IMG/VR virus record: IMGVR_UViG_3300020463_000142
Coordinates: 1-23,280 of that record
DNA from: a virus
Strand: one strand, 5' to 3'
Length of the DNA: 23,280 bases
The position numbers and the translations under genes are program-made. Below are positions 5,151-23,280 of the stretch, in pieces. Numbering within the stretch: the first letter of the stretch is position 1; every line of letters starts with the position of its first letter. The notes beneath the pieces were generated by a model that worked only from the letters and a program-made list of their open reading frames with translations, had not been told where the DNA came from and did no database searches.

Positions 5151-6617
5151 CTAGTTATTTACCAGGCGCAATACTACCTCAACAAGTTTCGTGGATTCTT
5201 CTGAATTCGATTCTAGGGCAAAACCAATTTGTTCGCCATTTGCGTCTGTTGTTCCAAAACCGCCACCGTTTGCATATACTCTTTCGCCTTTGGAGATAGC
5301 ACCTTTTACCAAAACTGGTACTCTACCAACAAAAGCAACTGCTTGACCTTCAGCGTCTTTGTTCATTAAAAATCCTGGATTCTCAGATATTACTCCAAGC
5401 ACTGGATCACCTGCTTCAACTGATCTTGCTTCTGCATCTCCGCCAATTGATACGATTGTTCCCACTGGGTATTCTTGATCTGTTTTGTAAATCTCTGCCA
5501 AGTCAGCATAATTTGCCTGCGTTGCTCTACCACTGAAAGTGGTTGCCGCTATTGTGTTTGTTGCGTCTCTTAATGCAACTGTGTTCACCTGTGCAGTTGT
5601 GCTACCTGGATATGATGTACCACCTTGCAATATTGCTGTGGCTGTGTCTGAATTTCCTTTTAAAGATGTTGCGTGTACCTCATACCATTTGTCGGACACC
5701 GTACCTAATGTTCTGTTTCCGCTTCCTGGATTGATACCAGTTGTTACAACTTCTGCAATACTTGTTACAACGTTGTTGACATTTACTTTTAAATCTATTT
5801 TCGTTCCAACTTCATTTGCAAGTACACCTTCGTTACCATTTGCAATTGAAACTTTAAAATCATTTGAATCACCAACAGTAAAACCTGCATCTGCAAATCT
5901 TACAATTGAACTGAAATTTGTGCTACCAGATCTCAAGTAATCACTTGCTACGAAACCACCCAGTCTATCTGAGTTTGAAGCAGTTCCAAAAAATCTGTGA
6001 TCTGTTGATGTTACACCGTTAGTTGCCGCTTGAGTGTTGACTAATGTAATACCTTTTTTAATTACGTCAAAGCCTGTAATTGTGTTTGACGATTGAGTTG
6101 AGTCTATCGTAAATTCTGTTGAACTGAATGCAACCATTGTCACATTGTTTACTTTGCCTTCAATTATAAGTTGTTGAGCACCTAAAGTGTCTTGTATCTG
6201 TCTACTTGTGAATTGTGTTACTGTAGAACCTACACCTTGTGGACCCACTAAAATAAAACTAGAACCGTCCCATGCATACAATTGACTGTTAGCAGTGTCC
6301 CACCAAAAGTCACCAGTTGTTAATCCTGTCGGAGCAGTTGAACTAATCTCAGCACCACCAGTTGTTCTAAATTTAGAACCGTCATAAAACTTTAATTTTG
6401 AAGTAGAACTGTCAAACCACATTTGACCTGATACTGGTCTTGACGGTGCAGTGCCTCCAGCAAAATTTTCCAGCATATGTAAGAAGTTTTCGTTTTGAAT
6501 TTCACCATAACCTGCATAGTTTTTACCTATAAATCTTAGGTTAGTAGTGTTGTCAATAGTACCGTCTTCTACCGTTGCTATCAATGTTCCTGTAAAATTA
6601 TTAACTGTATATGCCAT
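5151..6617 (-). CDS. Tail-fibre-like protein with Peptidase_G2-like C-terminal domain
   Basis: This 488-residue protein has the same N-terminal module as the two fibre genes upstream: LRFIGKNYAGYGEIQNENF, LLENFA-type helix, P-SRPVSGQMWFD, LKFYDGSKF, GDFWWDTANSQLYAWDG and a VGPQ end (about 25-125). A middle beta part carries FFGTA and a GNRTLGTVSDKW repeat of the type that places fibre strands. From about residue 366, NYADLAEIY, GTIVSIGGDAEA, DPVLGVISENPGFLMN and GRVPVLVKG resemble the Peptidase_G2 (intramolecular chaperone) family of phage appendage proteins, in which a C-terminal domain helps trimerisation and may be cut off. I cannot see whether cleavage residues are kept. AAAGGGC serves as ribosome site. 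A role as receptor-binding fibre on the virion is inferred. Confidence 0.75.
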   Translation of the reverse strand: MAYTVNNFTGTLIATVEDGTIDNTTNLRFIGKNYAGYGEIQNENFLHMLENFAGGTAPSRPVSGQMWFDSSTSKLKFYDGSKFRTTGGAEISSTAPTGLTTGDFWWDTANSQLYAWDGSSFILVGPQGVGSTVTQFTSRQIQDTLGAQQLIIEGKVNNVTMVAFSSTEFTIDSTQSSNTITGFDVIKKGITLVNTQAATNGVTSTDHRFFGTASNSDRLGGFVASDYLRSGSTNFSSIVRFADAGFTVGDSNDFKVSIANGNEGVLANEVGTKIDLKVNVNNVVTSIAEVVTTGINPGSGNRTLGTVSDKWYEVHATSLKGNSDTATAILQGGTSYPGSTTAQVNTVALRDATNTIAATTFSGRATQANYADLAEIYKTDQEYPVGTIVSIGGDAEARSVEAGDPVLGVISENPGFLMNKDAEGQAVAFVGRVPVLVKGAISKGERVYANGGGFGTTDANGEQIGFALESNSEESTKLVEVVLRLVNN

Positions 6618-6635
6618 ATTGCCCTTTGTTTCTAA

Positions 6636-6643
6636 TATTTATC
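6636..6643 (-). promoter_or_regulatory. Candidate T4-type late promoter ahead of the 488-residue fibre gene
   Basis: Read on the minus strand the sequence is GATAAATA, seven of eight matches to the T4 late promoter box TATAAATA, 18 nt upstream of the ATG at 6617 and inside a 32-bp gap. Such boxes need no -35 element. In AT-rich DNA a match of this quality can arise by chance, so its placement just ahead of a gene is the only support. Confidence 0.3.
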
Positions 6644-6649
6644 GTTATC

Positions 6650-8863
6650 CTATGTAATTTCTCTATCAAATTCCCATGCTCCACTGTTGACACCAAATTG
6701 AAGTATCTTAGTTGTCGGAGCAAAAGTGATTGTACCAGTTACGCCTGTTGGATCACTGATATCTTCTAATACCTGTTTGTTTGCGGATCCTACCACTGGA
6801 GTTCTTTGTGCAGTACCACTTGATGCATTGTAATTACCACCTAGCAATCCACTTGATTGTGAATCATAGTTTATTGTAATTGACACATAGTTAGGTGCTT
6901 CCGCTGAAAATTCTGCTGATTGAACAGTGTAGTTTCCATCGATAGTACCTATACCACCACTGAATGTTGTATTCTGTACAACAATGGCTTGTCCTGTTTC
7001 ATAGAAATGTGCCGCACTCATTGTTAATTTTGTAGTTGCGCCTAGTGAGTTATCTTGTGCGTATGTTGTAACACTAGCAATAGTTCTTTGTGCCGCTGTA
7101 ATTGTTTGGTCAACTGGCGTGAAATTTTTGAAATTACCTAAACTTATACTAGGTATGCTAAAACCACCTGTTGTTCCGTAATCAAGTGTTCTAATTCTAG
7201 CAATAACTCCTTGTGCTCTTGCGGCTATGCTTGAATTGTAGAAAGGACTTGATGGGTTACCACTTCCTGGTGGTTGCGGACTTGTTGAGTCGTATCCACC
7301 TGCTGGAAATAATTTTTCTAGTAATACACCTACAGGAGCATAATTGTTTCCTGCGTTTGCACTTAATCCTGTAATATCTAATTGAACACCAATAACTGTG
7401 CTTCCATCTGCGTAGGCTTTTGTTGCAACGTCCTGTGCCGCTGTTGGATCTGCAACACCTGATATTTTTTTGTTCTGTACTTCTATGCTAGTTGTAGCAC
7501 TGTCTAATTTTAATGCGTTGGCATTTAAACTTGTGATTAAACCATCTGTTGGTCCAATTTTTACATTGGCAATAGTTGCTTGGTTAAGAGTTCCTATTGT
7601 AGTAAGACCTGGAGCAGAAGTAACTGTTGAACCTAAAGCGGTTTCAGTCAAAACAGAATTTGTGTTAATTTTAATTCCTTTACCTGATGCAAGATCAATA
7701 TTTTCTGAACTTGTCCAAGAATCTGTTCCATCTTTCCATACAAAAGTTTTATTACCTTGTGATGAATTTAGTATGATACCACCATCGTCTACTGCGGCAT
7801 CATTTCCTACTGTGCCGTCATCTTTTTTACCTAAATCAATATTTTTATCTTCAACTACTAAAGTTGTTACATCTATAGATGTTTGTGTTCCACTTACTAC
7901 AAGGTTACCGTCAATGTTTACATCTCCACCTACATCTAAAGTTTTGCTTGGTGACGCTTTAAAAATACCTACTCTAGCATTTGTGGCATCAATTTTTATT
8001 GCAGAAGTTTCAGCAGGTCTTCTAACTTTAACTTCTACGTCTTGTCCTGTTAATTGATTTGCTACTGTGAACGCATTGTTTGTGAATTCTAATTTTGTGT
8101 TGTTGTTAAGTCCTACCGTCAATCCACCATTGTTTTGGATTGTTATTGCACCTGTTGTTGTGTCATCACTGTCCGCTGTAAGATACTGATCACCAGTTCT
8201 TACTATGCCAGCACCATCTTTTAATGCTTCCGATACAGTAGATGTTCCAACAAATTTGTAATCAGTTCCTACTGTGTTAAAACCTTTTGTAATTGCACCA
8301 GTTGTATTTGAACTTGTTACTAGTTCAGTGATTTGAGCACCTGCCGCCGGAGTAAACGAAGCGTTACTGTGTACGCCTACTAGGCTACCGCCTACGAACA
8401 TTTTCACAACATAGTTTGTAATACTTTGTGTATCTAACACACTAACAACTGTGAAGCCTGAAGTTCCTGATTGTCTTGAATAAGTTGGACCAGCAAGTCT
8501 TAAATTTGTTCCATCAAAGAAATATAATTGACTTGCATTGCTGTCAATCCAAAGATCACCAGCAACCATGTTAGGTTGTGTGGCTTGAACAGTAACACCA
8601 CCACTTGCCGTAAATGCCGTTCCGTTGTATACTTTTAATCTATTTTCTGTTGTGTCGAACCATAACTGACCTCTTGTAGGATTAGTTGGTGCGGCACTGT
8701 TTGCAAAATTTTCTAATAGTTGAATGAAGTTTTCATTTAATACTTCACCAAATCCTGAATAGTTTCTTCCAATAAGTGTTAAGTCACTAGATGTTGTATC
8801 CAATTGACCATCTACTAGGTCAACAAGTAAACTGCCATCTGTTTTGTTCAACTTATAACTCAT
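6650..8863 (-). CDS. Tail-fibre-like protein, 737 residues, with a distinct C-terminus
   Basis: The N-terminal module matches its neighbours: LTLIGRNYSGFGEVLNENF, LLENFAN, GQLWFDT, LKVYNG, GDLWIDSNASQLYFFDG and an LAGPTY end. At about 307-325 the phrase KTLDVGGDVNIDGNLVVSG and then VVEDKNIDLGKKDDG, DDGGIILN and FVWKDGTDSW form a beta module often seen in phage fibres. ISGVADPTAAQDVATKAYAD (about 467-486) is the hinge motif common before C-terminal domains. The remaining 250 residues include a PQPPGSGNPSSP linker and a beta-rich end (EFDREIT) that I do not recognise. The ATG shares a base with the upstream TAA (TAATG), and GGAGG gives a strong ribosome site. It probably forms a trimeric virion fibre whose end contacts a receptor; this is inferred. 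Confidence 0.75.
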   Translation of the reverse strand: MSYKLNKTDGSLLVDLVDGQLDTTSSDLTLIGRNYSGFGEVLNENFIQLLENFANSAAPTNPTRGQLWFDTTENRLKVYNGTAFTASGGVTVQATQPNMVAGDLWIDSNASQLYFFDGTNLRLAGPTYSRQSGTSGFTVVSVLDTQSITNYVVKMFVGGSLVGVHSNASFTPAAGAQITELVTSSNTTGAITKGFNTVGTDYKFVGTSTVSEALKDGAGIVRTGDQYLTADSDDTTTGAITIQNNGGLTVGLNNNTKLEFTNNAFTVANQLTGQDVEVKVRRPAETSAIKIDATNARVGIFKASPSKTLDVGGDVNIDGNLVVSGTQTSIDVTTLVVEDKNIDLGKKDDGTVGNDAAVDDGGIILNSSQGNKTFVWKDGTDSWTSSENIDLASGKGIKINTNSVLTETALGSTVTSAPGLTTIGTLNQATIANVKIGPTDGLITSLNANALKLDSATTSIEVQNKKISGVADPTAAQDVATKAYADGSTVIGVQLDITGLSANAGNNYAPVGVLLEKLFPAGGYDSTSPQPPGSGNPSSPFYNSSIAARAQGVIARIRTLDYGTTGGFSIPSISLGNFKNFTPVDQTITAAQRTIASVTTYAQDNSLGATTKLTMSAAHFYETGQAIVVQNTTFSGGIGTIDGNYTVQSAEFSAEAPNYVSITINYDSQSSGLLGGNYNASSGTAQRTPVVGSANKQVLEDISDPTGVTGTITFAPTTKILQFGVNSGAWEFDREIT

Positions 8864-10878
8864 TAAATTCCTCCACTGTATATGATGTAATTAAGTGTTA
8901 AGTACGGGTTCATCACATCAAATAGTTGTCCCGTTGTGCCTGCTAATCCACCTGTGTTAGGTAATTGTTGTGCGCCGGCTGTGTTGTTTAAATCTGGACC
9001 ACTTCTAGTTGTTACTTCTGCATCACCTGATGCTCCTGCAATCATTCTAGATGCAAAGAACTGATCTCCATTGTTTGCTTGAAGATTGTGTTCGTGTTGT
9101 GGTAAATTTTCTTTTGTAATTGTTTTCTTTTCTGCACCAGCACCTTGTCCTAGGTTATCAGCAAATACTGCCGTTGTTCTATCTGCAGAACCTTGTCCCA
9201 TGTTGTCTTTACCTAATGGGAATCTTCCACGCAAGTCCGGAGTTTTAAATACTGCCGATGTGCTTGGCGTTCCAAATTGAGTACCTATGACTCCAAACAG
9301 TTTGTTGTATGTTGCTCTGCTTATTTCTGCACCATCACACATTAACCAATCTGTAGGAGCAGTTGCACCTGCATAAATCATAATTGATCCTATTGGTGGT
9401 GTAGGTATTGTGTTTACTATAGAACCAACAGTAGTTTTAAATATACCTGTTGTTCCTGATGTTCTGTTTATTATCAATTCGTCTGATACAGAACTTGTTG
9501 TTGTTAAAGTTTGATTTCCTATGAAAGAATTGCTTATAGATGTAGCAAAAGTTTTAGATGTTCCACCTGTTTGTCCATCAAAACTGAATGATGTTGCTGT
9601 AACATCTCCAGTCATATTAAATGTTGATGCTGTTGTTAATTTGTTTGCCTGACCGGCTGTGCCAGATACTGTTCCACTTACATTTCCAGTTACATTTCCT
9701 ACAAAATTATTTGCGTATACATTATTGTATTGGTTGTTCGTAGCACCAATGCTGTATGTGTTGTTAGCCTGTGGTAAAATATTGTTTGCTGTAACATCTC
9801 CTGCGATATTTGTAGCGTCACCAACATAAAGTTTTTTGGCTATGCCTACTCCACCTTTTGCAATTATTGAACCTGAACTTACATTCGTTGCGTCAGTTGT
9901 GCTATCGGATTGTATAGAGCCACTTGATAAAATATTACCTGTTACGTCTAATGCTTGAGTTGGATTAGTTTTGTTTACACCAACTTGTCCTTGCGAACTT
10001 ACTCTTAATACTGTTGTTGTTTGACCTTGATTGTTTAATCTGAAATCTATTTCTTCATCTAATGTACTTAATTGGAATATACCTGCTTGATTCTCAACGA
10101 ACATTTTGAAAGAACCTGCCGCTCCAACTTCTACACCGTCATCTGTTTTTACTTTAATTGGAAAATTTGTTAAACTTGTTGTATCTGATCTTAAAAAGTT
10201 TCCTGCCGCGATAGTTGAAGTACCAACAACAAGGTTTTCTGCCTTTTGTGCCGTACCATAAAATTTTCCTACACCGTCACCAGTTATATTCGCAACACTT
10301 AAATTTAATCCTGGATATAAAGTTGAAAATCCTGCTATGTTACTTTTAGGTGTAAACTGATCAGAAGCAATGATTGCCACTGTCTTCGCTGAAACTTCTA
10401 GTTTTACAATACTGTAATTTAAATCATCTGTGCCAGTAACCACAACAGGACTTGCGCCTGTTGTTAGTCCTGAACTATATTGTGGACCTATAAGTACCCA
10501 ACCTGTTCCTGTGAACAAGTAAAGTTGTTGTGCATTTGTATCAACCCAAAGGTCACCTGTGACGCTTTCTGAAGCACTAGGTTGATTGATTGCTTTTTTA
10601 AGTCCACCTGACGCTACCCAATTGGTACCATCATACACTTTCAATTGATCTGTTCCTGCTGTTGTATCGAACCAAAGTTGTCCTTCAACAGGTCTCGATG
10701 GGGCAGTGCTATTTGCAAAATTTTCTAAAAGATGTAGAAAATTTTCTGCAATTATTGTACCATATGATGTTGTATTTTTTCCTGGCAGTCTTAAAGTAGT
10801 TTCATTATTAATAGTATTGTCATTAATAGTGATAGTACCCTTGTTTACTGCGTCGGAAAAATTAATGGTATATGCCAT
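8863..10878 (-). CDS. Tail fibre with C-terminal tail-collar (MdpB-type) domain
   Basis: This 671-residue protein starts with the shared fibre module (LRLPGKNTTSYGTIIAENF, LLENFANSTAPSRPVEGQLW, LKVYDG, GDLWVDTNAQQLYLFTG, LIGPQY). The middle has repeats (VNKTNPTQALDVTGNI, then NTYSIGATNNQYNNVYANNF). From about residue 489 comes a tail-collar domain as in T4 gp12 and MdpB proteins: PPIGSIMIYAGATAPTDWLM, C514-D-G, TPDLRGRFPLGKDN, LPQHEHNL and an NPYLTLNYIIYSGGI end. H595-E-H597 fits the HxH metal site that, in T4 gp12 and gp37, lets three chains bind a metal ion on the fibre axis. A trimeric receptor-contacting fibre is therefore likely. GAAGGG precedes the ATG, and the gap to the gene upstream is 3 bp. 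Confidence 0.85.
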   Translation of the reverse strand: MAYTINFSDAVNKGTITINDNTINNETTLRLPGKNTTSYGTIIAENFLHLLENFANSTAPSRPVEGQLWFDTTAGTDQLKVYDGTNWVASGGLKKAINQPSASESVTGDLWVDTNAQQLYLFTGTGWVLIGPQYSSGLTTGASPVVVTGTDDLNYSIVKLEVSAKTVAIIASDQFTPKSNIAGFSTLYPGLNLSVANITGDGVGKFYGTAQKAENLVVGTSTIAAGNFLRSDTTSLTNFPIKVKTDDGVEVGAAGSFKMFVENQAGIFQLSTLDEEIDFRLNNQGQTTTVLRVSSQGQVGVNKTNPTQALDVTGNILSSGSIQSDSTTDATNVSSGSIIAKGGVGIAKKLYVGDATNIAGDVTANNILPQANNTYSIGATNNQYNNVYANNFVGNVTGNVSGTVSGTAGQANKLTTASTFNMTGDVTATSFSFDGQTGGTSKTFATSISNSFIGNQTLTTTSSVSDELIINRTSGTTGIFKTTVGSIVNTIPTPPIGSIMIYAGATAPTDWLMCDGAEISRATYNKLFGVIGTQFGTPSTSAVFKTPDLRGRFPLGKDNMGQGSADRTTAVFADNLGQGAGAEKKTITKENLPQHEHNLQANNGDQFFASRMIAGASGDAEVTTRSGPDLNNTAGAQQLPNTGGLAGTTGQLFDVMNPYLTLNYIIYSGGI

Positions 10879-10881
10879 TTA

Positions 10882-11493
10882 TTACCCTTCGTTAAAACCT
10901 GTTAAACTTTGTACTCTAACAGTGTAATCTATTTGTATCAATCTGTTTAAACTTTTTTGTACAGGATGAAAAATTACGTGTGTCAATAATTTGCCTGTTC
11001 CTGATGATGCGTAACTTGTAAGTCCTAATTCATCAAACACATATAAACTGTCTGATGCGGATGCTGTGTCAGTTGCATCTTGTCCATTTGGTTCACCATA
11101 ATCTAATAAACAGGTAACAACAACATCTGTATAGTTTGTTCCATTCACGTGTCTTGTTTCTATCTTATTTCTTTGTGGATCTAAGTTAGATACTGATCTA
11201 TCATCAACAATTTTAGTAAATGTTTGGTTGTACAAACTTGCATTTGTTCCAGTACTGTTTGGAGTTAGATATGTGATAATACCAGTTGGATCAACTGATG
11301 TTCCACCGTTACCAAACGCCATTGAACTGATGAAGCCTTGCCCTGCGTTAGCAACACTTTCAGCCAAAGCAATACTCATATTTTCATAATGGATTGCGTT
11401 ACGTTTATTAACGAATACAGCACCGGATTCAGGGTCATGTATCTTAATATGTCCTTGAACTAATACTCCGCTGTTTTCTTTTATTTTACTCAT
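10882..11493 (-). CDS. Conserved virion structural protein between giant protein and fibres
   Basis: This 203-residue protein begins MSKIKENSGVLVQGHIKIHD, then AVFVNKRNAIHYENMSIALA and a Gly-rich IS-MAFGNGG segment (about 55-64). The combination of V-GHIKI-D, NAIHYENMS and MAFGNGG recurs, as I recall, in a structural protein next to large virion proteins in marine T4-like phages; its exact position in the virion is unknown to me. The C-terminal half is beta-rich and ends LIQIDYTVRVQSLTGFNEG. It has no signal peptide. GGAG lies 6 nt before the ATG (TTGGAGCACAAATG). Placed just before three fibre genes, it could be a baseplate or fibre-attachment component. This is inferred from gene order only. 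Confidence 0.75.
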   Translation of the reverse strand: MSKIKENSGVLVQGHIKIHDPESGAVFVNKRNAIHYENMSIALAESVANAGQGFISSMAFGNGGTSVDPTGIITYLTPNSTGTNASLYNQTFTKIVDDRSVSNLDPQRNKIETRHVNGTNYTDVVVTCLLDYGEPNGQDATDTASASDSLYVFDELGLTSYASSGTGKLLTHVIFHPVQKSLNRLIQIDYTVRVQSLTGFNEG

Positions 11494-11514: not shown

Positions 11515-11522
11515 TATTTATT
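11515..11522 (-). promoter_or_regulatory. Candidate T4-type late promoter at the end of the giant gene
   Basis: Minus-strand AATAAATA matches the T4 late box TATAAATA at seven of eight positions, 21 nt upstream of the ATG at 11493. It overlaps the TAA stop of the giant gene, so part of the match is imposed by the coding sequence. It is similar in sequence and distance to the box before the 488-residue fibre gene, which is the main reason to list it. Confidence 0.3.
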
Positions 11523-14500
11523 GCGGCAATGCCACTTCTTTTTGACGTATGAATCTTGCGATGTCATTATTCGTCTGACTCAGTGCTTTTGCCGTATCAT
11601 GCCAAATTTTCCCTTGTTTCCTTATAACCGCAATTTTGGCAGTTGCGGATGGTGTTGTTGTAAATGTTATCACAGGATTAACACCATCTACTGTGAATTC
11701 TGCTTGAACAGTGGTATCTGCCTCTGGACTGTCTTGTCCATTTGCTGGGTCATATACACTAATACTGTTCTTACGTAATCTCTTACCACCTACAAATATC
11801 TCAAATTCATTTGCCGATTTAGGTGTAAATGATATGGTTAGTTGATTATTTGAAACATTTGCTCCAGTATAATTTTCAGTTAAAAACTCATCTTTGTATG
11901 GAACGTTCTGATGTCTACTTTGATCGAACACCTGTGTTGATGCTGTATGTTTAGTAGGAATACCTGTGCCAAATGTTCCTCTTCTAAGTTGTTTAATTGT
12001 GTGTCCTTGTTTCTGATAGTATTCTATTCTTTCACCATCTATAAACAATATACCTGGCAATCTTGCACCAATGCTAGGATCTGTTAAACCTGTTCCGTCT
12101 GTAAGCACAATTTCTCTATCGCTCCAGTTTAAATCTTGTGCTAGATAATACTGCTTGTCATCTCCAACACGTTTGAAGTGAGACCTGTTAAGCATATCTT
12201 TAAATTGTCTGTATGCAAATTTACCTATGAAACTAGGAGCAGAGAAGTGTATAACATCTATCTCATCGTTCTGCGATAAATTTCTATTGATTAATAATCT
12301 ATTCTGATCATTCGAAACTGTGTAGTCAACACTTGGAGCCAACCATTCTCCGTTTACACATACCCAAACATATTGAGCATCAGTAGCCGGTCTTCTTAAT
12401 TGTATCACTCCATTAGTTAATTGATTGTATGTGAAATAATCTTCAGTATTGACAGTAATACTCTGTCTTGCTATTACATCAAACTGTTCACGCTCTATAT
12501 CTTGTATATCATGTTTACTAAATTGATATGCTGTAATAGTTTTTCCATTTGTTGGAGCAGGAGATATTGTTAATACTCCAGTGTTACTTACTGAGTACTC
12601 TCCGTTTTCGATATAAACTTCTAACACATCTCCGATAGCACCAACGCCTGATTCTAAAGTAACACTGCTGTTACCAGGATTCCATCTGTATTGTGCCGCA
12701 GTCAATTCTGTTTTGTTTAAGAAGGCTCTTACATTTGTTGCTAATATAGTTCCAGGTAAAACCTGCCAAGTTTTAAATTGATATTCTCTGATCAGGTTTC
12801 CACCTGTAGCAGTTAAGGTGTGTTGTTTTGTAAATCCGCTTCTTAACACATCGTTATCAACTTTTACAATTACATTGTTTGTAAATGGTTGTTGTGTAAA
12901 TGGTGTAGGCGATAAAGTAAATGCTGTTGTACTTCCATCAGCAGTAAAACTGTTTTGTGTTACTTCACTGAAAGATTGACTTGCACTCTCATACACGCAG
13001 ATATTAATCACTGCATCTTGTGTCGGAGCAGATGTAAATCTAACCGCAACTTTTCCTGATCTTGAATATGTGCTGTCAGTTTCGAATACTGTGTGAGTTT
13101 GATCTACGCCGTTTACTTTTACTAAAGTACTGATGCTGTTTGCTTTAAATTTACCTCTTGTTACAAATTCTGTTGTGCTTCCGTCGCCAGTAAATATATC
13201 TACATCTAAAATAGATTCACCACTGTTGCCCATTGTGATAAAGTTAATTTTAGCACCATTCGTCGGTGCACTATTGAATACTAAATTTTTATTTTGATAA
13301 TCCACTGCATATAAATTGTTATTAAACAAAATATTATCTACAGAAACAAATACAGCATTGTTACTTTGTGGGAAGTCTACGAAAGAATATGTTGTTGTAG
13401 CACCATCACCTATGTAATTGTAACTGTTAATTTTACTTCCTGTGAATGCACCTCTGTCATATACTTGGATATCTAATGTGTCTAACACTTGTCCTGGAAC
13501 AAATTCTTCTGGTCCATGACTTGATGTAGGAGTAACAAATCCGTCTCCATCTATGTTTATATCTTCTGCATTTAATCCAGTAGCAGTTGAGTAAGCAAGA
13601 TCACCACCTTTTACTAATGAATCCACTGCGTCAGGATCAGGTAAGAAACTTCCATCACTTGTAGATTTTCTTACAATGATGATGTCATCACTGCCTGTTT
13701 CAATTGCACTTACATCTACAGTTTTTGTGCTACCGTCACCTTCTAGTGATCTCATCACAGCATTTGTATTTGTAACTGGATTTCCTGTTCCAAAGTTAGG
13801 ATCATCCATTCTAACTAATTTCCAATCCCACTTGTTATTTGTTAATGCTCTAAATCTTCTGTACACATGATATTGTACACCAGACTCTAATGCTTTAGAT
13901 AAGTTTATAGATTGTGTACTTCCATCAAGGTAGAATATTTCATCTTCGTAAGTTGTGTCATACGTGTCCCATTCTCCTGAACCATAACCTGCATTGTCCC
14001 AGCCTGATACATCCTCGAAAGTTATACTTCTTACTTCTACTCCACCGTAATCTATTCCATCAATTACCTGTGCAAGTTCTTTGCCTGGCTGACCATCAGT
14101 TGGTGCATAATATAAATTAACTCTGTCTTGCGTATGTAAAACATCTTGATCAATCAAATATGTTATTGATATTGTAGATAAATTTGTAGGTGGTGAAGTG
14201 AACTGTACATAGCCAGTTTTCCTTGAATATGTTTTTGTTGTATCGTTTTCGTTATTGAAAATAAACGCACTTCTTAATTGTCCAACTCCTGCAACTGATA
14301 TAGTTACTGAATTTGATCTTAAATCCATTGGCCATTTTAATTTAAATTTAAGTTGCGAAGCATTTCCCGTAAATGTTTCTGTTCTTGATAAATTTGCTAA
14401 CAATAATGTTCCTGTTGTTCTATCAAACTTAACGCCTAGATGAGTTGATCTTGTTACTCCTTTTCCTAAGACTGAACTTGCAGTGGCATATGTTCCTGTT

Positions 14501-17500
14501 GTGTTGCCAGATAGGGTTACAGTTGGAGTAGATATGTAACCACTGCCCTCTGTATCAACTCTTATTCTTGTTACTTTACCATTTTTAATGAATGCTGTTG
14601 CTGTCGCTCCAGATCCTCCACCACCAGTAATTGTTACTTTTGGAGCATTGACGTAATCTGTTCCTGCTGTTGCAACATTTATTTCTGTAATGGAATAACC
14701 AACATTGTCTAACCAATGCTTATCTGGATAAGTTGTGATAGAGTTTGTAGTTAGTGATGTTCCACTTACCCTGATGTTACTTGATTGTATGTAACCATCT
14801 AGGTATCTTGGTGGATAATCAAAGTCTGCTATACTTGTATTTGTAGGTTCTGTTTTTTGATAAGCACTTACATACTCTCTAATTTTAGATTTGTATGGTT
14901 TTACTTCTGCAATATAATCTTCAAAGTTTGCAAGATTGTCATTTCTGAATGAACGTTTTTGCTGTAACTCGCCAACATTGTGTTTTGCTTTTATGAAACT
15001 TGTTTTAAAGATCCAGTCATTTAATTTTTCTTCACTTAAAGCATATCTAATACTTGCAAAGAATAATTTATTATATTCAATGTCTAATTCTTCAACAAAG
15101 ATTTTATCTCTCAATGTTTGTAAAATTAATCTTGTTTCCTCAATTGGCTGTCTGTCATACAATTGAACGTCAAAACTATTGCTGTCGTAACCGATATTTG
15201 TATTTGCATAGTCATACAATCTACTGTTAAATTGTATTGTGCCATTTTGTCTACCCACAGTTTTGTAATTTACAGTATAGTCTACCCCGACTTGGCTGTC
15301 TATTTTTTCTAATAACAACCAACCACCAGTACCAATTGTACTAATTTTTACAATATCGCCTACACTATTTTGTAAAGCATCTAATTGATAACTGTAATCT
15401 ACTTTTTGATCTATTGCTGTAAATTGCGTATATCCAGTAGCATACCAATCTGCATAACCCCAATACAATGAAGTATTGTAACTTTGTATTCGTGATCTAT
15501 TCCATTTGTCAGTTGCAGTCCAGTTGTATATTGACCACTTGCCATCAACTAGACTATCTGCTGTAACTAAAGCACTAAAGTTTCTTACTGTGATTGTTGT
15601 TTTAGAATCATAATTTTTTCCTTGCTTTTCAACTTTGACAGCAGTAACCTGTCCTTTTGCATTAATTGTTAATTTGAATACCGCATCTGATCCATTAGTG
15701 GATTTAATTTTGTATGTAGGAGCGACCTTATAGCCTGAACCTGGATTTGTAATAGATACATTTGTTATTTTTCCATCTAAAACTGTAGGCACAAGAGTTG
15801 CTGTAACTAACGGACCTGTTCCTAAGAATTGTAAATCTGCTTCTGTATCAACAGTGCTATCGTATAAGCCTGATTGTGCCACTGGTGCAGGTTCGCTTGA
15901 TGTTAAAGTTGATAAATCTACTTCATCTACGATTAAATTTTTAATTAAAACATCATTGGCTCTAATAATTAATTGTTTTGTTGCTTCAGCATTGTTTTTA
16001 AACCAACTTTGTCTTGGAGTAGTCAATGTTCCATATTTTGCTTTGTCGCTTAATTCTGGATCTGGTACTTGATTCATTTGTTCGTCATATCCAATTAAAC
16101 TGTTGAACCATACATTTTCTATATCTTTAGGTAATGTGCTTGTACCTAAATTTTCAGATACAAGAGCATATTCATTGTGTACGTTTCCTTTAGATTCTGT
16201 GTTAAACAATCTAAAGTTTAGAATAGTATCACTGCCATTTATTAATGTATCACAGTTTACAAGAGCAAATCTATTTGGTCCAAATATTGTCACATATTTG
16301 TAACCTTGTGCTCTTGGATCTTTAATTAAATTTTGCACTGCTTCAGCAGTCATGCCTCTGCCCTCTAATTCAGGAACAGTCTTTTTACCTTTTACCCAAT
16401 AGTAGTAAACATTTTTCATTGTGCCTGCAACAGAATCATATTTTCTACGAGTTACAAAATTTGTTGCGTCAGCAACAGTACCAGTTACTCCTAAACCTGC
16501 ACCTTGAGTAGTTGCAGATAGAGTGTTCCACTCTGTAGGCGTTCTAGTTGATTCTGTCCATTCGTGTACATCGATTGTTGCACCTGGAAATAGTTTATTC
16601 CAATAAGCATTATTGAAGATTACATTGCTTTGATAAGGATAATAGTATACTGCCGTGCTTAGATCCCACCAAAGTCTGCCAACTTGCGTATCAGTCCAAC
16701 TGTTTGTTACGTCTACTGTGCCAGACGCTCCTGTGTTGTTGTACACAGCCGGATCATAAAGTGTTTTATAAAATAGTTCTGCTTCTGCAGGTCCAGGTAT
16801 CTTACCATACAAAGGATCGATGTAATCTAGATTCGCTAATTTTTTATTTGTTACTTTGTCATACAAGAAGATACTTTTAATTTTTGTTAAATCTATTTGA
16901 TCTATACCAGTAGTCATCTCATGAATGCTAGTCCAATTATTTTCTGTTGGAGATTTTCTAAAATTAATTACTGTTCCTTTTTGCTGATTTGTTAATTGCA
17001 ATGTTGGTAACCCAATGTAAACGTGATTATTGTTTATAGTTAAGTTAGAGCCAAATTGTTGTAAACTGTCATTTGCGTAATTAAATTTTTCACCATACAA
17101 CATTGTGTTTTCAAATTTTTGATAGATATGAACAGCACCGCTGTCAGTAAATGTTTTTGTGAATGTAGTCATTTGGTCGTCAAAAGATGTAGTGCCGTTA
17201 TCCAATGTCGTTGGAACTTGCATATCGCCTTTAAGACTTGTTACTGCCAACACACTACCACTAAATGCAAGACTATGTCCAAAGTTTTCAGATACTTCTT
17301 TATCTGGACTTGTTAATGTTTGATTGTAACTGTAAACACCTGTATCGTCAGTTGCTTTTTTGTAAACATAAACAGCACCCATATCTATACTATTGAAATC
17401 TTTTAATGGACTTCCGACAGCAATTAATGTGCCATCTCCACTGATGCTTATATCAGAACCAAAATTTATCATAGCCGCAGAATCATTCGGTGGCACAATA

Positions 17501-20500
17501 GTTTGTTTGTAAGTGTAATGCCCGTTGTCCAATCTATACACAACAACTTTTTGATTGTCGTTGTTATAAAGTATGTTTGCGATAATGTTTACGCCGTTAT
17601 CATCAACATCGAACCTATCTGCAAAACGAACTAATCCGTTTTGTGCTAAAGTACTGTCTTGCTCTAGTTCTATACCTGAATCATTTGGAATATATCCTAA
17701 CATATCTGTTCTTGTGCCTTGTAAAGTCCAATATACAGGATTCCATGCACCAGGAGTTAAGTTTGTGTTTGCTTTGTAAAGTTGATTTGCATAAACAACT
17801 AGTTCGCCAGTAACATAATTTGCTGTGTCATCATACGTACCAGTGTATAATGGATCAGTTCCTAGTGTCCAATTTTTGTTTGCATTGTATTCCACAAAAT
17901 AAATTTTACCAGGATTGTTCGTTGCTAAATTTCCACTTGCTCCTATGAACGCAACAGTCTTATCACCTACTGTTCTAACTTTAATTCTAGAACCTAGTTT
18001 CAAATTTGCTTTTGTATCTGGAACTGTATATGCACTATTGTATGAATAATTTCCTGTACCATCTTTTTTGTAAATTAAGAACGCACCTTCATTGGTTAAG
18101 CCACTTGCAGTACCTTCTCCTATCGGTATATTGAAAATTTTATTCCAATCATAGTTGGTAGAACTTGGCGTGTTTGCACTTGCAGATATTCCGTCTAGTG
18201 TTTGTTCGTCCCACAGCCAATATTCTTTGTCATTAGCAAAATACTCTGTAGCATTTCCTGAAATAGTAATCGCAGATGTGTTCGTAAACACTAATAGTTT
18301 ACCTGCACCATTAAGTCCTGCCATATTTGTTTGTTCAATGTTACCAAGTGTTCTGTTTGGACTTCCTATTCTTGTAATTGTTCCATTTACACCTGCATTT
18401 GAACCTAATGTAAATGTTCCTGTTGAATTTTTGATCCAAACTCTTAATTTGTTTAATGCTGTAAATTGTGTCAACACAACTGTTGCTGTGTTTAATGTAA
18501 CATCATCTCTTACAGTGTCGCCTACACCAGGGAAATAAAAATTATTATTGGAATCACTCTGCGAATCAACATCTATGTAACCGTCCATTACTTCAGCAAC
18601 AGTTTTAAGTCCATTTGTGTCTGTGCTTGTGATATTGATACCTGTAAAATCGAACTTGTTTGTGCCAACAGTGTTGAACCAAACGTTTATCGTATCATTT
18701 TGACTTTTAGTAAACGTTGGTGTAGTACGCACATACCAATTGTTGTTTAATATTCCTGTAGGTGAACCACGTGATACCCATTGGTTAGTACTAGAATCTA
18801 TGTAGTATGATTCATAATAAGTTAAAACTCCAAACTGTGATTGATACATTGGAGTTTGTGGCGTAATTGCTTGTATTGTTTCGTCTATGCTGTTAACAAA
18901 TTTATTTGTGTTCCTCGTTACACCTTGTCTTTTAATATCTTGTATTACTAAATGATTAGAAGTGTCTATACCTGCACTTGTAGAGATGGTTGCATTTATA
19001 TCTACCATCCAAAAACCGCTTAGGTATGAATAATCTTCAACAAGGACTCTATTGTAAGTACCTACTTCAAGTGCACCATACATTAATGTACCTGATGCAG
19101 TTACAACACCTTCAACATCTTTTAAGTAAAGTAAAGTTTTTGTTCCTTCTTTTCTTTTGTAAACAACTGTACCTTCAAAACTAGTTGAATTTACAACAGC
19201 CGTCAGTATTGGATCTACTAAAGTTAGATCAACTTTTAAAATAGCATCAACTTTTTGTACAATCGGCACTTCCGTTGCACTGAAAAGATTAGTTTTAATA
19301 GTTGGGTCACCAACTCCTGCAAAAGGTTTTTGTGTAGCCTTGGTTAAATTGCTTCTGTCTATTGGATAATCACTGCTAAAACCTAAGTATTGCATTATTA
19401 ATCTATCACCAATTTTAGTTCCTTGGTATTGATCTCTACTTGCTCTTATTAGTAAGTGCGTTGTAGTCACATTAGAAAATATATGATCTCCTATTATTAT
19501 GTTAGACGTAGAAGTTTGTGTGCTTTCTCTGTATAATCCAGCACCATCGAACGTTGTAAAGTCCACGGATGGATCTTGACCTGTAATTTGATTCGTGGCT
19601 CTCCATAATTGGTTTTTATATTGAACTATATTGTTGACATTATAGTTTGTACTTGAACTGAACACACCTTTGTATTCCGTTTTAAGGTTGCCGGCTGTAG
19701 GTGCACCAATAACAACAAAGTTTCCGTCTGGACTGATGTCAACTGCTGAACCAAAACTACTGCTAGAGCCAAATAAATCTAAACTTGTTAGCAACGGATC
19801 TTGTGTAGGTGCTTCTATCTTTTGTGAAAATCTTAAATTACCACTTTCAGTGCCTCTAACAAATACATAGATTGCTCCATCACTGTCAGTTGGTTGACTT
19901 ACAAGAACAACAGTATTATTTTTATTTGTTGCAATTACTTGTCCAAAACTTTCATCACCTGAAACAGAGGTTGTGCTGATTTCGTTTTGCGTTTTGTAAA
20001 CAAATTTGTTGTTAACAACTTTCCATTTACCATCATCACTTGCTTCTATCCAGAATTTTTCGTTGTCCCTTATGCCTGACGTGTTTACTCTATTATTAAT
20101 TGCGTCTGTGCTTGTAAATTTCGCACTTATAAATCTGCTTATGTAACCTGTTGCCGTAGATAATTGTTGGAATCCTGTTTTAGGCTCGCACACAATTTTT
20201 GAAGGTTCAACACTTGTACATTTAAAAGTGTAATTTGTTCCATTTGCATACACAACGAATATTTCGCCTACTGTCATTTCAGGTGTGTTCAATGTGTCAA
20301 CTTCTATTGTGTTGTTTACTACATTAATTGCTTGTATTCTTTGTGTCGTTTTAGAATATCTAAAAACATTCCAAGTCGAATTGTAATCTCCAACCCAAAC
20401 ATAATTGTTGTCTACTATATTTGTAATATCCGCCGTCAATAAATCTGCGTATTTGCCAACTGTTAAACTAATATCAACAGGATTGACTGGTCCTGCTGTT

Positions 20501-23280
20501 TTAACATATGTATTTTTGTTATACTTTGTTGGGAAAGGTGAATGTGTATATGCATCTGGTTTCAAATACACTTGTCCTGATTGTATTCTGTATGTTAAGT
20601 CGCTTTCTGTTGTAGGCAAATTATCTGTAAGTTCGATCGGTTGTGGATTTAATCTTACTTTAGATTCGTCTAGTTTAAATTCAACTTCATCGAATACAGC
20701 ACTTGCGCCATATTGTCCTTTGCGTACTGCCCATTCTTCGTAAAAGTCTATGCTTTCTTTATCTGCACTTGATAGAGCATCAAAAATTTTAGATAATGAA
20801 TTCTCTGTTCCCTTTTCTCTTACAAATCCTTGATAAAATTTGTATTGTGCAACATCGTCATTAATAATATTTTTCAAATACGTTCTTGGCTGGTATCCAA
20901 TTAAATGTTGAGCCATTCTTTGTTGTTCAGTGTCAAAGTTGTCTGTATCTAAATCATAAAAATCACCAAATTGATTAGTTCTGTAGTCAAAGTTAGATAT
21001 TAATGTATCACTAGGAGCACCATCTAGCCTTGTCCAATCAGCGTCTACAAATGCAGAAGTGCCTTTTAATTTTGTATTTGCAGTATAATAGAACTGTTTG
21101 TATTTTACTACGTCACTCATTGAGTAATCAGTGAATTGCGTCCATTCTTTAATGTTTGCGACACTGAATACAAAGCCTGGAATGGATTGACTTCCGTCCC
21201 ACTCTGTCAAATATCCTAATACTTTTAATCTATCTTGCTTGTAACCACTTGCTGGATCATATATCAAGTCACTAAATGATGTTTGGTTGTCAATTAAACA
21301 CACTTGTTCTTTTTGTACAAGAGGTACTTTTGCAAAGTAAATTCCGTTTACAGTATTTTTCGTAAGTAAACTAAAATTATTTGCTTGTCTTACAATTCTT
21401 AAAAAATTGCGATCTAATTTGTTTCCGTCTTCTTTTAAGATGCCATATGAGTAAAAATTGTCTATAACATTGTCAGCAACACTGTAACTGGATTTAACAG
21501 TCAATTTTCTTGATGCTGGACTTAAACTTATTACACTACCTTTATCCCATTTTTGAGTTGTCCAGAATAAAAATTCTTTTGCACTCAATTGCCAGTTGGC
21601 AACCACTTCTAAATCTTTGCTAAACTCATTGAAGTCAAAACCTTGATCAGTTAAATATTCTCCATAACCAAGTATAATATCTAAAACTTCTTGTTTAGTT
21701 CTTACTATTGTGCCGTATGGGATTTCTTCTACCGTCGATTTGTCAAATCTTCGTCTTATTATTCCTTCTGCGCCGCCTTCAACAGGCAATTCAACTAATT
21801 TAACAAATTTTGTTAAGTCAAATGTTTCTGTTGATAAGTGTGCTGTCTCGGTTGCATAAAATTGATCATTGTATTTTACATATTGTCCAACATCATAACG
21901 ATTGTTTTCTCCCCAATTTACAAATGAAGAACTTATTCCACCAACGTTTATAACTGGATCATTGGCTTGCTCTATAAAAGAATAGTATTTTACTTGTGGA
22001 GCATTTTTGTCATATCCTCTGATGATGTATCCTGCCGCAGTAAGTTCAACTATCAATGCACTATAAGATAGCATCTTTATAGGAGCACTTGTATTTTGTA
22101 TCAGCCTATAATTTTCTTGTGGTACAAAGACAGATGTTGACGTGTTAGGTGTCTTACTGTCCAATATCAATTGGAATTTGTCTTTTTTACTGTACCCTTT
22201 TATTTTAAAACCTATTTGTGCAACAATACTTTTTAAATTTGTTTTGTATTCAGCATAATCAGTAAGTAAATTTGTTTCTACATATTCATACAAATAGTTT
22301 ACAAGACCTGCGGTGTTTACCACAGTAGTTTCGCTGATGCTACTTGGAAAAATTAAACTTTTAGTTTGTATTGGTAATTCATTTGAGTACACAATTTGAT
22401 CAGCAGTATTTCTACTAATTCTTGATGTGTCCCAACCAACTCCAATCACCTTAGAAGGTTGATGCAATATAAATGCTTTTAGTAATGAGAAAGGATAATC
22501 TGAACTACGTCTCCAAGCAGATTCAACCGGACTCTCGTCGCCAAATTTAAAATTATTTTTTCCTAAAGTTGGATCAACTTGTCTTGCATATGCACTGTCA
22601 AAAGGACTTCTAATATTTCCATCGCTGTCTGCTGGAATGTACCCTGTCAGTCCTGGTCTTGCATAGTTTTCTTTCCTTACAATTTTTTTGTTAGGCTCTC
22701 TTACAATACCTTCTTCTAAGTCTTTCCACAATACTAAATTGTCTTTGGTGTACGGGGCAGGTCCATAAGTTGTTTCCCACCATGTTGGCTCTATGGTGTA
22801 TCCTAACATCTCCCATGGAGTAATGTTAGGTCTATCAGTGTCATATAATTTTTTGTATATTGCTCTCCAGAAACCGTTTAATTGTACACCTTGTGGACTT
22901 ACAGCATGACTGTAATTCCAAGTTCTGCTATCGCCAATCAAATAATATGAATTAGTTGTATAGTCCGTATTTCCAACAAAACCTAGCCACTCGTTGAAAT
23001 CTGGCAACACACTATTGTTAATTGTGGTGCTAGTAAAAAGATTGGTTCTATTAGTGCCAGGTAATAAATCCTTGTAATTCAATATGTTTTCGTCATAGGT
23101 AACTTTAATATTATTGAAGATACGTTTTTCTAGGTCTAAAATTAAGTCATCTCTGAAGTCGTTGTATGCAACAGTAATACTTCCATCGTGCCCTTGTATG
23201 ACGTTCACAGGCGTTACTAATGTTGTATCTGAATACTTCATAGGTCTATATGAAGGATACAATCCTAATTTTGTAGGAGT
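11518..23280 (-). CDS. Giant multidomain virion structural protein (5' end outside the window)
   Basis: The frame is open to the right edge (3920 codons visible, with TPTKLG before the TTG at 23262), so that TTG is unlikely to be the start. Near the edge, INV-GHDGS and RDDLILDLEKRIFNNIKV recall a conserved large virion protein of marine T4-like phages. Residue 1 below is the TTG. Contents: a W/Y-rich N-terminal part (PWEMLGY, YGPAPYT, about 150-175); four chitin-binding-like repeats (about 450, 707, 1200 and 1803); seven FG-GAP-like repeats between 1106 and 2100; GSGY beta repeats (about 2497-2560 and 2855-2918); a helical segment FIKAKHNVGELQQ to AEVKPYKSKIREYVS (about 2705-2810); DGST repeats (about 3170-3480); an IDGERIEYY and RG--GT motif (about 3735-3770); end FIRQKEVALPQ. 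It is probably part of the tail or baseplate; surface glycan binding is inferred. Confidence 0.9.
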   Translation of the reverse strand, partial: TPTKLGLYPSYRPMKYSDTTLVTPVNVIQGHDGSITVAYNDFRDDLILDLEKRIFNNIKVTYDENILNYKDLLPGTNRTNLFTSTTINNSVLPDFNEWLGFVGNTDYTTNSYYLIGDSRTWNYSHAVSPQGVQLNGFWRAIYKKLYDTDRPNITPWEMLGYTIEPTWWETTYGPAPYTKDNLVLWKDLEEGIVREPNKKIVRKENYARPGLTGYIPADSDGNIRSPFDSAYARQVDPTLGKNNFKFGDESPVESAWRRSSDYPFSLLKAFILHQPSKVIGVGWDTSRISRNTADQIVYSNELPIQTKSLIFPSSISETTVVNTAGLVNYLYEYVETNLLTDYAEYKTNLKSIVAQIGFKIKGYSKKDKFQLILDSKTPNTSTSVFVPQENYRLIQNTSAPIKMLSYSALIVELTAAGYIIRGYDKNAPQVKYYSFIEQANDPVINVGGISSSFVNWGENNRYDVGQYVKYNDQFYATETAHLSTETFDLTKFVKLVELPVEGGAEGIIRRRFDKSTVEEIPYGTIVRTKQEVLDIILGYGEYLTDQGFDFNEFSKDLEVVANWQLSAKEFLFWTTQKWDKGSVISLSPASRKLTVKSSYSVADNVIDNFYSYGILKEDGNKLDRNFLRIVRQANNFSLLTKNTVNGIYFAKVPLVQKEQVCLIDNQTSFSDLIYDPASGYKQDRLKVLGYLTEWDGSQSIPGFVFSVANIKEWTQFTDYSMSDVVKYKQFYYTANTKLKGTSAFVDADWTRLDGAPSDTLISNFDYRTNQFGDFYDLDTDNFDTEQQRMAQHLIGYQPRTYLKNIINDDVAQYKFYQGFVREKGTENSLSKIFDALSSADKESIDFYEEWAVRKGQYGASAVFDEVEFKLDESKVRLNPQPIELTDNLPTTESDLTYRIQSGQVYLKPDAYTHSPFPTKYNKNTYVKTAGPVNPVDISLTVGKYADLLTADITNIVDNNYVWVGDYNSTWNVFRYSKTTQRIQAINVVNNTIEVDTLNTPEMTVGEIFVVYANGTNYTFKCTSVEPSKIVCEPKTGFQQLSTATGYISRFISAKFTSTDAINNRVNTSGIRDNEKFWIEASDDGKWKVVNNKFVYKTQNEISTTSVSGDESFGQVIATNKNNTVVLVSQPTDSDGAIYVFVRGTESGNLRFSQKIEAPTQDPLLTSLDLFGSSSSFGSAVDISPDGNFVVIGAPTAGNLKTEYKGVFSSSTNYNVNNIVQYKNQLWRATNQITGQDPSVDFTTFDGAGLYRESTQTSTSNIIIGDHIFSNVTTTHLLIRASRDQYQGTKIGDRLIMQYLGFSSDYPIDRSNLTKATQKPFAGVGDPTIKTNLFSATEVPIVQKVDAILKVDLTLVDPILTAVVNSTSFEGTVVYKRKEGTKTLLYLKDVEGVVTASGTLMYGALEVGTYNRVLVEDYSYLSGFWMVDINATISTSAGIDTSNHLVIQDIKRQGVTRNTNKFVNSIDETIQAITPQTPMYQSQFGVLTYYESYYIDSSTNQWVSRGSPTGILNNNWYVRTTPTFTKSQNDTINVWFNTVGTNKFDFTGINITSTDTNGLKTVAEVMDGYIDVDSQSDSNNNFYFPGVGDTVRDDVTLNTATVVLTQFTALNKLRVWIKNSTGTFTLGSNAGVNGTITRIGSPNRTLGNIEQTNMAGLNGAGKLLVFTNTSAITISGNATEYFANDKEYWLWDEQTLDGISASANTPSSTNYDWNKIFNIPIGEGTASGLTNEGAFLIYKKDGTGNYSYNSAYTVPDTKANLKLGSRIKVRTVGDKTVAFIGASGNLATNNPGKIYFVEYNANKNWTLGTDPLYTGTYDDTANYVTGELVVYANQLYKANTNLTPGAWNPVYWTLQGTRTDMLGYIPNDSGIELEQDSTLAQNGLVRFADRFDVDDNGVNIIANILYNNDNQKVVVYRLDNGHYTYKQTIVPPNDSAAMINFGSDISISGDGTLIAVGSPLKDFNSIDMGAVYVYKKATDDTGVYSYNQTLTSPDKEVSENFGHSLAFSGSVLAVTSLKGDMQVPTTLDNGTTSFDDQMTTFTKTFTDSGAVHIYQKFENTMLYGEKFNYANDSLQQFGSNLTINNNHVYIGLPTLQLTNQQKGTVINFRKSPTENNWTSIHEMTTGIDQIDLTKIKSIFLYDKVTNKKLANLDYIDPLYGKIPGPAEAELFYKTLYDPAVYNNTGASGTVDVTNSWTDTQVGRLWWDLSTAVYYYPYQSNVIFNNAYWNKLFPGATIDVHEWTESTRTPTEWNTLSATTQGAGLGVTGTVADATNFVTRRKYDSVAGTMKNVYYYWVKGKKTVPELEGRGMTAEAVQNLIKDPRAQGYKYVTIFGPNRFALVNCDTLINGSDTILNFRLFNTESKGNVHNEYALVSENLGTSTLPKDIENVWFNSLIGYDEQMNQVPDPELSDKAKYGTLTTPRQSWFKNNAEATKQLIIRANDVLIKNLIVDEVDLSTLTSSEPAPVAQSGLYDSTVDTEADLQFLGTGPLVTATLVPTVLDGKITNVSITNPGSGYKVAPTYKIKSTNGSDAVFKLTINAKGQVTAVKVEKQGKNYDSKTTITVRNFSALVTADSLVDGKWSIYNWTATDKWNRSRIQSYNTSLYWGYADWYATGYTQFTAIDQKVDYSYQLDALQNSVGDIVKISTIGTGGWLLLEKIDSQVGVDYTVNYKTVGRQNGTIQFNSRLYDYANTNIGYDSNSFDVQLYDRQPIEETRLILQTLRDKIFVEELDIEYNKLFFASIRYALSEEKLNDWIFKTSFIKAKHNVGELQQKRSFRNDNLANFEDYIAEVKPYKSKIREYVSAYQKTEPTNTSIADFDYPPRYLDGYIQSSNIRVSGTSLTTNSITTYPDKHWLDNVGYSITEINVATAGTDYVNAPKVTITGGGGSGATATAFIKNGKVTRIRVDTEGSGYISTPTVTLSGNTTGTYATASSVLGKGVTRSTHLGVKFDRTTGTLLLANLSRTETFTGNASQLKFKLKWPMDLRSNSVTISVAGVGQLRSAFIFNNENDTTKTYSRKTGYVQFTSPPTNLSTISITYLIDQDVLHTQDRVNLYYAPTDGQPGKELAQVIDGIDYGGVEVRSITFEDVSGWDNAGYGSGEWDTYDTTYEDEIFYLDGSTQSINLSKALESGVQYHVYRRFRALTNNKWDWKLVRMDDPNFGTGNPVTNTNAVMRSLEGDGSTKTVDVSAIETGSDDIIIVRKSTSDGSFLPDPDAVDSLVKGGDLAYSTATGLNAEDINIDGDGFVTPTSSHGPEEFVPGQVLDTLDIQVYDRGAFTGSKINSYNYIGDGATTTYSFVDFPQSNNAVFVSVDNILFNNNLYAVDYQNKNLVFNSAPTNGAKINFITMGNSGESILDVDIFTGDGSTTEFVTRGKFKANSISTLVKVNGVDQTHTVFETDSTYSRSGKVAVRFTSAPTQDAVINICVYESASQSFSEVTQNSFTADGSTTAFTLSPTPFTQQPFTNNVIVKVDNDVLRSGFTKQHTLTATGGNLIREYQFKTWQVLPGTILATNVRAFLNKTELTAAQYRWNPGNSSVTLESGVGAIGDVLEVYIENGEYSVSNTGVLTISPAPTNGKTITAYQFSKHDIQDIEREQFDVIARQSITVNTEDYFTYNQLTNGVIQLRRPATDAQYVWVCVNGEWLAPSVDYTVSNDQNRLLINRNLSQNDEIDVIHFSAPSFIGKFAYRQFKDMLNRSHFKRVGDDKQYYLAQDLNWSDREIVLTDGTGLTDPSIGARLPGILFIDGERIEYYQKQGHTIKQLRRGTFGTGIPTKHTASTQVFDQSRHQNVPYKDEFLTENYTGANVSNNQLTISFTPKSANEFEIFVGGKRLRKNSISVYDPANGQDSPEADTTVQAEFTVDGVNPVITFTTTPSATAKIAVIRKQGKIWHDTAKALSQTNNDIARFIRQKEVALPQ
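17725..17850 (-). other. Chitin-binding-like (CBM5/12-like) repeat 4, between propeller repeats 3 and 4
   Basis: The encoded segment reads YTGTYDDTANYVTGELVVYA, then NQLYKANTNLTPGAWNP and a YWTLQG end. It is the copy closest to the CBM5/12 pattern, with Y, V-Y, LYKA and the closing W all present. It lies between the third and fourth FG-GAP-like repeats. Confidence 0.5.
19545..19665 (-). other. Chitin-binding-like (CBM5/12-like) repeat 3, inside propeller repeat 2
   Basis: The encoded segment reads FSSSTNYNVNNIVQYKNQLW, then RATNQITGQDPS and a FTTFDG end. The closing tryptophan is replaced by phenylalanine. The copy starts a few residues after the IGAP strand of the second FG-GAP repeat and opens the long insert there. 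Confidence 0.45.
21025..21144 (-). other. Chitin-binding-like (CBM5/12-like) repeat 2 in the giant gene
   Basis: The encoded segment reads WTQFTDYSMSDVVKYKQFYY, then TANTKLKG and a DWTRLDG end. It follows the same aromatic pattern as repeat 1, with the closing tryptophan present. Sugar binding is inferred from the pattern only. Confidence 0.45.
21790..21915 (-). other. Chitin-binding-like (CBM5/12-like) repeat 1 in the giant gene
   Basis: The encoded segment reads WGENNRYDVGQYVKYNDQFY followed by ATETAH and a KFVKL end. It fits the W/Y--Y--G--V-Y---Y-A pattern of small aromatic carbohydrate-binding modules. Three more copies with the same frame follow in the same gene at about 21144, 19665 and 17850. 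Confidence 0.45.

Follow-up and report, generated by a model that had tools for sequence, protein, structure and literature searches.

The window analysed here is the whole 23,280-base stretch of an IMG/VR virus record, and its largest ORF, on the minus strand, encodes a giant virion protein. Four modules of about 42 amino acids lie in this ORF, each single and at a separate site:

11518..23280, minus strand: giant virion protein ORF (P0001), 3,920 aa here, with its 5′ end cut by the contig end
21796..21921, minus strand: module m1, residues 454-495; predicted CBM5/12 fold and, of the four, the nearest to CBM12 (own profile 51.5 bits)
21022..21147, minus strand: module m2, residues 712-753; predicted CBM5/12 fold
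19546..19668, minus strand: module m3, residues 1205-1245; predicted to lie among propeller strands
17719..17841, minus strand: module m4, residues 1814-1854; predicted to lie among propeller strands, with a loop resembling the Milano tail-spike docking loop
17041..19923, minus strand: FG-GAP beta-propeller region (PF14312, E 2.2e-16), which holds m3, m4 and a beta-rich insertion

All four segments had been picked out in an earlier, sequence-only reading as dispersed chitin-binding-like repeats. Each is present where that reading placed it, in one minus-strand ORF and singly, and the predicted structures likewise put two of them, m3 and m4, in the propeller region. A search of 12 window ORFs, the giant one included, with a module profile gave no credible copy outside the giant.

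The complete gene in a close relative (L012) encodes 4,898 aa from its ATG, and close relatives reach about 4,900 aa at full length. In PHROGs the giant ORF matches phrog_10938, 'virion structural protein' (E 4.5e-191), a family filed under 'head and packaging', and the database record of the PA5oct homologue notes ESI-MS/MS. Upstream of the giant gene in L012, ORFs match hub/lysozyme, gp25-type and gp6-type wedge families, so that the order gp5, gp25, gp6, giant is the T4 order before gp7 (gp5, gp25, gp6, gp7). The giant protein adjoins baseplate wedge genes, and it is by gene order only that we place it in the baseplate. Comparison of two of its profiles, A2 and A8, with T4 gp7 by hhalign gave probabilities of 0.2 and 0.1 per cent; against the PDB, A8 had no match and A2 matched only via m1. 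The top rows of a BFVD search were other giant proteins of the same family. Elsewhere in the window, at 5151-10878, three successive fibre-type ORFs have N-terminal heads of ~95 aa that resemble one another (ENF..LLENFA....P..P..GQLWFD), as if docking to one kind of partner. A 203-aa product is encoded at 10882-11493.

Family and fold of the modules

The sequence-only reading had proposed that the four segments are one small module related to CBM5/12, and profile searches bear this out. With Pfam PF02839 (CBM_5_12), the whole window protein scores 26.8 bits against a gathering cut-off of 26.2, a sum over three stretches; the cut-off is reached by no single module (m3, E 6.9e-6, and m4, E 2.7e-5, both lie below it), and a close relative (L003) scores 23.9 against the same 26.2. 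Scanned singly against Pfam, 29 of 31 modules match CBM_5_12 at E<=1, although weak PF02839 matches alone mean little, being found at E<=1 in 9 of 14 control genomes and over the cut-off in 2.

An HMM built from three modules found the one left out with 12.0 bits for m2, 11.8 for m3 and 10.8 for m4, against 3.0 for the best of 50 shuffles; left-out m1 scored only 2.9 bits, level with its shuffles (2.6). In pairwise alignment none of 2000 shuffles reached the score of m2-m3 or m3-m4, and 45 of 2000 reached that of m1-m3. With site profiles built from relatives, all six pairings are significant (m1-m2, E 1.2e-11; m3-m4, 2.4e-11; m1-m4, 4.3e-9; m2-m3, 5.2e-9; m2-m4, 9.8e-9; m1-m3, 5.5e-6), and it is these profiles that settle the membership of m1. 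The motif said to be common to all four is matched literally by m3 and m4, and m1 and m2 depart from it at one or two positions.

Against the PDB, a profile of all four sites (A6) ranks phage proteins first: the tail spike gp124 of phage Milano (E 3.2e-14, two modules) and the tail fibre of phage 7-7-1 (3.5e-14). Vibrio chitin oligosaccharide deacetylases, chitinases and the CBM12 of ChiA1 follow, these chitin-processing enzymes at 4.6e-12 and weaker. The individual site profiles differ in preference. That of m1 favours enzymes (deacetylase, 1e-8; 1ed7, 1.6e-6), that of m2 a phage fibre (9rkv, E 5e-5), and that of m4 the phage fibre (9rkv, E 2.3e-9) and spike (8fqc, E 4.6e-9), both better than any enzyme; m3 matches a chitinase domain (2rts, E 0.0022) and the Anabaena contractile injection system protein All3316 (E 0.0032). 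Single-sequence phmmer searches returned nothing credible for m3, and for m4 the only sensible matches were 9rkv (E 0.009) and 8fqc (0.017).

In an AlphaFold (AF2) model of residues 425-800 (mean pLDDT 75.3; m1 ~85-91, m2 ~66-79), both m1 and m2 are predicted to adopt the small three-stranded CBM5/CBM12 (chitin-binding type 3) fold. By VIA-align, m1 matches 3wx7 (Z 7.0, rmsd 1.2, 45 aligned) and 1ed7 (Z 4.9, rmsd 1.5, 40 aligned), and m2 (model 287-330) matches 9f4a (Z 5.9, rmsd 1.7, 44 aligned), Z values that fall in the tool's 'common' range and are backed by the sequence profiles. T4 capsid chains also appear in the fold comparison (Z 4.9-6.3). The model of residues 1120-2080 (pLDDT 87.6) resembles integrin-alpha headpieces (Z 23.2, 316 aligned, rmsd 3.4), and m3 and m4 are predicted to sit among its integrin-type propeller strands with the hairpin spacing of the family. 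Fold searches with this 961-residue model return propellers only, which limits the CBM5/12 fold match from models to m1 and m2. Taken together, we regard the four segments as almost certainly CBM5/12-fold (chitin-binding type 3-like) domains.

Distribution and history of the four sites

Named homologues of the giant protein belong to jumbo phages, namely the PA5oct group, RaK2, GAP32, XaC1, Atu_ph07, Phosso, SCTP-2 and Vibrio 2.275.O (57 records, all below 60% identity). Our survey covered 129 loci, 126 of them with a giant ORF and 89 left after near-duplicates were removed by a crude rule. Among the 62 giant ORFs of at least 4,000 aa, 47 have four modules, 7 have five, 2 have three, 5 have two and 1 has one; exactly four modules in the standard spacing occur in 57 ORFs, and 3 of the 89 giants have none. 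In three RaK2-type loci (L018, L022, L024) the giant is without a module and an ATP-dependent protease gene lies directly after it on the opposite strand.

In a 90-row alignment, m1 and m2 are each filled in 81 rows; of the nine rows blank at m1, one (L005) is only a cut contig. Some relatives have m2 without m1 (L124-L127), others m1 without m2 (L016, L019, L020, L021, L129) and others neither (L018, L022, L023, L024). Where a site is empty its flanks close up cleanly, as expected of whole-module indels, and m1 and m2 come and go independently of each other. A propeller alignment, made up of rows chosen because they match that region, has both m3 and m4 occupied in 52 of 52. All four sites are thus of old standing and fixed across a large clade of jumbo-phage relatives.

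Identity at the same site across phages is 37-53%, compared with 15-24% between different sites within one protein, and in a FastTree tree the 57 modules of each site fall, 57 of 57, into one near-pure cluster (support at the best split 0.69 for m1, 0.93 for m3, 0.79 for m4 and a weak 0.0 for m2). A recent spread of a single module to four places is rejected, since the modules group by site and are more alike within sites than between them. The suggestion that one module had been copied into several exposed sites survives only as an old event, and the old origin of the set may lie in one ancestor or in several.

Further modules occur in a few relatives. Some have a second module beside site 3, as at residues 2275-2314 of the L067 giant ORF; this additional copy clusters with modules of the m1 type, suggesting that modules have moved between sites. 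A few have an extra module near the N-terminus of the giant (L101, residue 237; L086, residue 230), possibly a fifth site. Outside the giant protein, a gp6-type wedge protein of Vibrio phage 2.275.O (L023, 4368-8228), annotated CBM 5/12, has three such modules in tandem. Another PA5oct protein, away from the giant gene (NC_071039.1, 204801-205217, in a 1,015-aa open frame), has three successive PF02839-like matches, all below the cut-off, and a second very large ORF in L043 (12928-20871, ~2,650 aa) has one module.

In three close pairs selection is purifying, with dN/dS of 0.02-0.24 wherever it could be obtained; two of the module values were not computable. Conservation is lower in the modules than in their flanks (m1, 0.41 vs ~0.50; m2, 0.50 vs 0.69-0.78), which fits surface exposure of any kind. 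The modules could in principle be passive spacers, small stable folds in permissive loops that have neither partner nor ligand and are kept because their removal destabilises the surroundings; the whole-module indels with unchanged flanks at m1 and m2, and the lower conservation of the modules, speak for this. We consider it unlikely, since site-specific residues are strictly kept (F744 and W749 in 81 of 81 m2 modules) and most relatives have every one of the four sites filled, four or five modules being, by the counts above, the rule in long ORFs.

Ligand residues and candidate roles

For the ChiA1 CBM12, PMC3701571 describes a core of Trp656, Tyr662, Val668, Tyr670, Tyr675, Cys677, Leu695 and Trp696 and a surface ligand residue, Trp687, which stacks on sugar; for CBM5, PMC8449059 describes an exposed aromatic pair with near-complete conservation across the family. 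The core aromatics (Trp656, Tyr662, Tyr670, Tyr675, Trp696) have counterparts in the m1 sites (W/F/Y in 81/81; Y in 80/81; an aromatic in 74% at Y470; Y/F in 80/81; a closing aromatic in 93%), and m2, m3 and m4 likewise keep the first Tyr and the Tyr/Trp before Ala. By residue correspondence, the motif from which sugar binding had been proposed belongs to the hydrophobic core of the CBM5/12 fold and not to the face that binds sugar.

The ligand positions look different. The counterpart of Trp687 is never Trp in m1 (F 74, I 5, L 2 of 81), is Phe in 81 of 81 m2 modules and is missing in m3, which has no aromatic there; in m4 it is F in 36, W in 12 and another residue in 4 of 52. In printed PDB alignments the same column has Trp in 6 of 6 enzyme modules (1ed7, both of 4ny2, both of 3wx7 and the first of 8yfp, a count that leaves out the variant 4nz1) and Phe in 4 of 4 modules of 8fqc and 9rkv. 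The CBM5 aromatic pair was not found at any of the four sites; of the three positions per site that were placed by the motif, none has F/W/Y in more than 4 of 81 or 4 of 52 rows, and none ever has Trp. In the window itself, three of the four sites therefore lack the known ligand-contact aromatics or have other residues in their stead; the exception is m4, whose Trp, W1846, speaks for some binding there.

Such residues bear on whether the modules bind glycans of the host surface or of particles, for reversible attachment, with a binding face unlike that of chitinases. The fold is that of chitin-binding domains, m1 keeps a His in 74 of 81 rows, as in ChiA1, with a Ser near it and Phe at the aromatic position, m4 has its Trp in a minority that includes the window, and phage records with the names 'chitin-binding type-3' and 'CBM 5/12' already exist. 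Apart from the lost CBM5 pair and Trp687, the points against are that m4 is nearer to the Milano docking module than to any enzyme, that the three close pairs give no sign of diversifying selection, and that the neck fibre of A-1(L) has a distal carbohydrate-binding module for which PMC10966104 reports no binding to host cells. We rate glycan binding as possible but doubtful.

The nearest solved virion relatives point elsewhere. As described in PMC10811340, residues 1-175 of Milano gp124 form a tail-binding module that contacts the wedge proteins BW2 and BW3 through two loops, of which RTDLPPGPFDPANWQ is one; the authors state that the significance of these contacts remains to be determined. 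This wedge-contact loop aligns with the m4 stretch ANTNLTPGAWNPVYW. From the docking of the Milano loop on wedge proteins together with the lost ligand residues, we consider it rather likely, and likelier than glycan binding, that the modules are small docking or cementing domains inside the tail. The modules, single CBM5/12-fold domains inserted in loops at the surface of what would be a giant structural protein of the tail or baseplate in a marine jumbo phage, have retained the hydrophobic core of the fold and mostly not its sugar-stacking aromatics. They would keep adjacent tail proteins or the heads of fibres in place, in the manner of the T4 capsid insertion and of the two related modules in the Milano spike. 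Physical contact of the loops with wedge or other tail proteins is something we infer from 8fqc as described in PMC10811340.

Docking is also favoured by the ranking of phage spike and fibre before chitin enzymes with A6, by core aromatics that are kept where ligand aromatics mostly are not, by the clean and mutually independent indels of m1 and m2, by the dN/dS values in close pairs, and by the neighbouring baseplate wedge genes. Four points count against it: (i) m1 alone best matches chitin-processing enzymes and has the ChiA1-like His; (ii) the baseplate placement comes from gene order only, the comparison with T4 gp7 gave no match, and PHROGs files the family under 'head and packaging'; (iii) the window's m4 has Trp; (iv) the modules vary more than their flanks, as surface exposure of any kind would allow. 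A more elaborate version, which seems improbable to us, is that the giant protein acts as a socket board, each fixed site offering its own CBM5/12-fold socket to a different accessory fibre or connector, with lineages swapping adhesion gear through gain or loss of whole sockets; that the three neighbouring fibre-type proteins with the common N-terminal head are such partners is similarly a long shot.

In summary, the feature is real, well conserved and of a known kind, and its reading as a sugar-binding device is possible, albeit less likely than a structural role. Automatic 'chitin-binding domain' names in phage virion proteins invite a reading as sugar attachment; here the fold is right and the binding residues are mostly gone. 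Checking for Trp or Phe at the ChiA1 Trp687 position may help to sort glycan-binding from docking members, and four fixed, independently lost sites make the holding role of each insert testable.

Comparison with known systems

Searches of the open-licence literature listed no paper that treats CBM5/12 inserts of this giant protein. The giant virion proteins of PA5oct and PAC2 (the latter named 'chitin-binding type-3 domain-containing protein') are homologues with a module at the m1 site; they differ in having no m2 module and, in the alignment, no counterpart of the propeller region with m3 and m4. The ChiA1 CBM12 of Bacillus circulans (1ed7) and the CBM12-like pairs of Vibrio deacetylases share the fold and core, notably with m1. 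In these enzymes the ligand position is Trp, whereas it is mostly Phe in the window family, and between this position and the closing aromatic the family has a shorter loop than ChiA1, by the residue numbers given in PMC3701571.

Milano gp124 (8fqc) and the phage 7-7-1 fibre (9rkv) belong to the same domain family by profile (E 3e-14) and, like m1 and m2, have Phe at the Trp687 position in each of their four printed modules. Their modules follow one another in tandem at the N-terminal end of a trimeric spike, whereas those of the giant protein are single inserts far apart. The T4 capsid proteins gp23 and gp24 offer a parallel for insertion, having a chitin-binding-like domain set into a virion protein, which, as described in PMC3185693, bridges neighbouring subunits; that insertion is in the capsid, unlike the modules here, which probably belong to the tail, and the likeness seen is one of fold.
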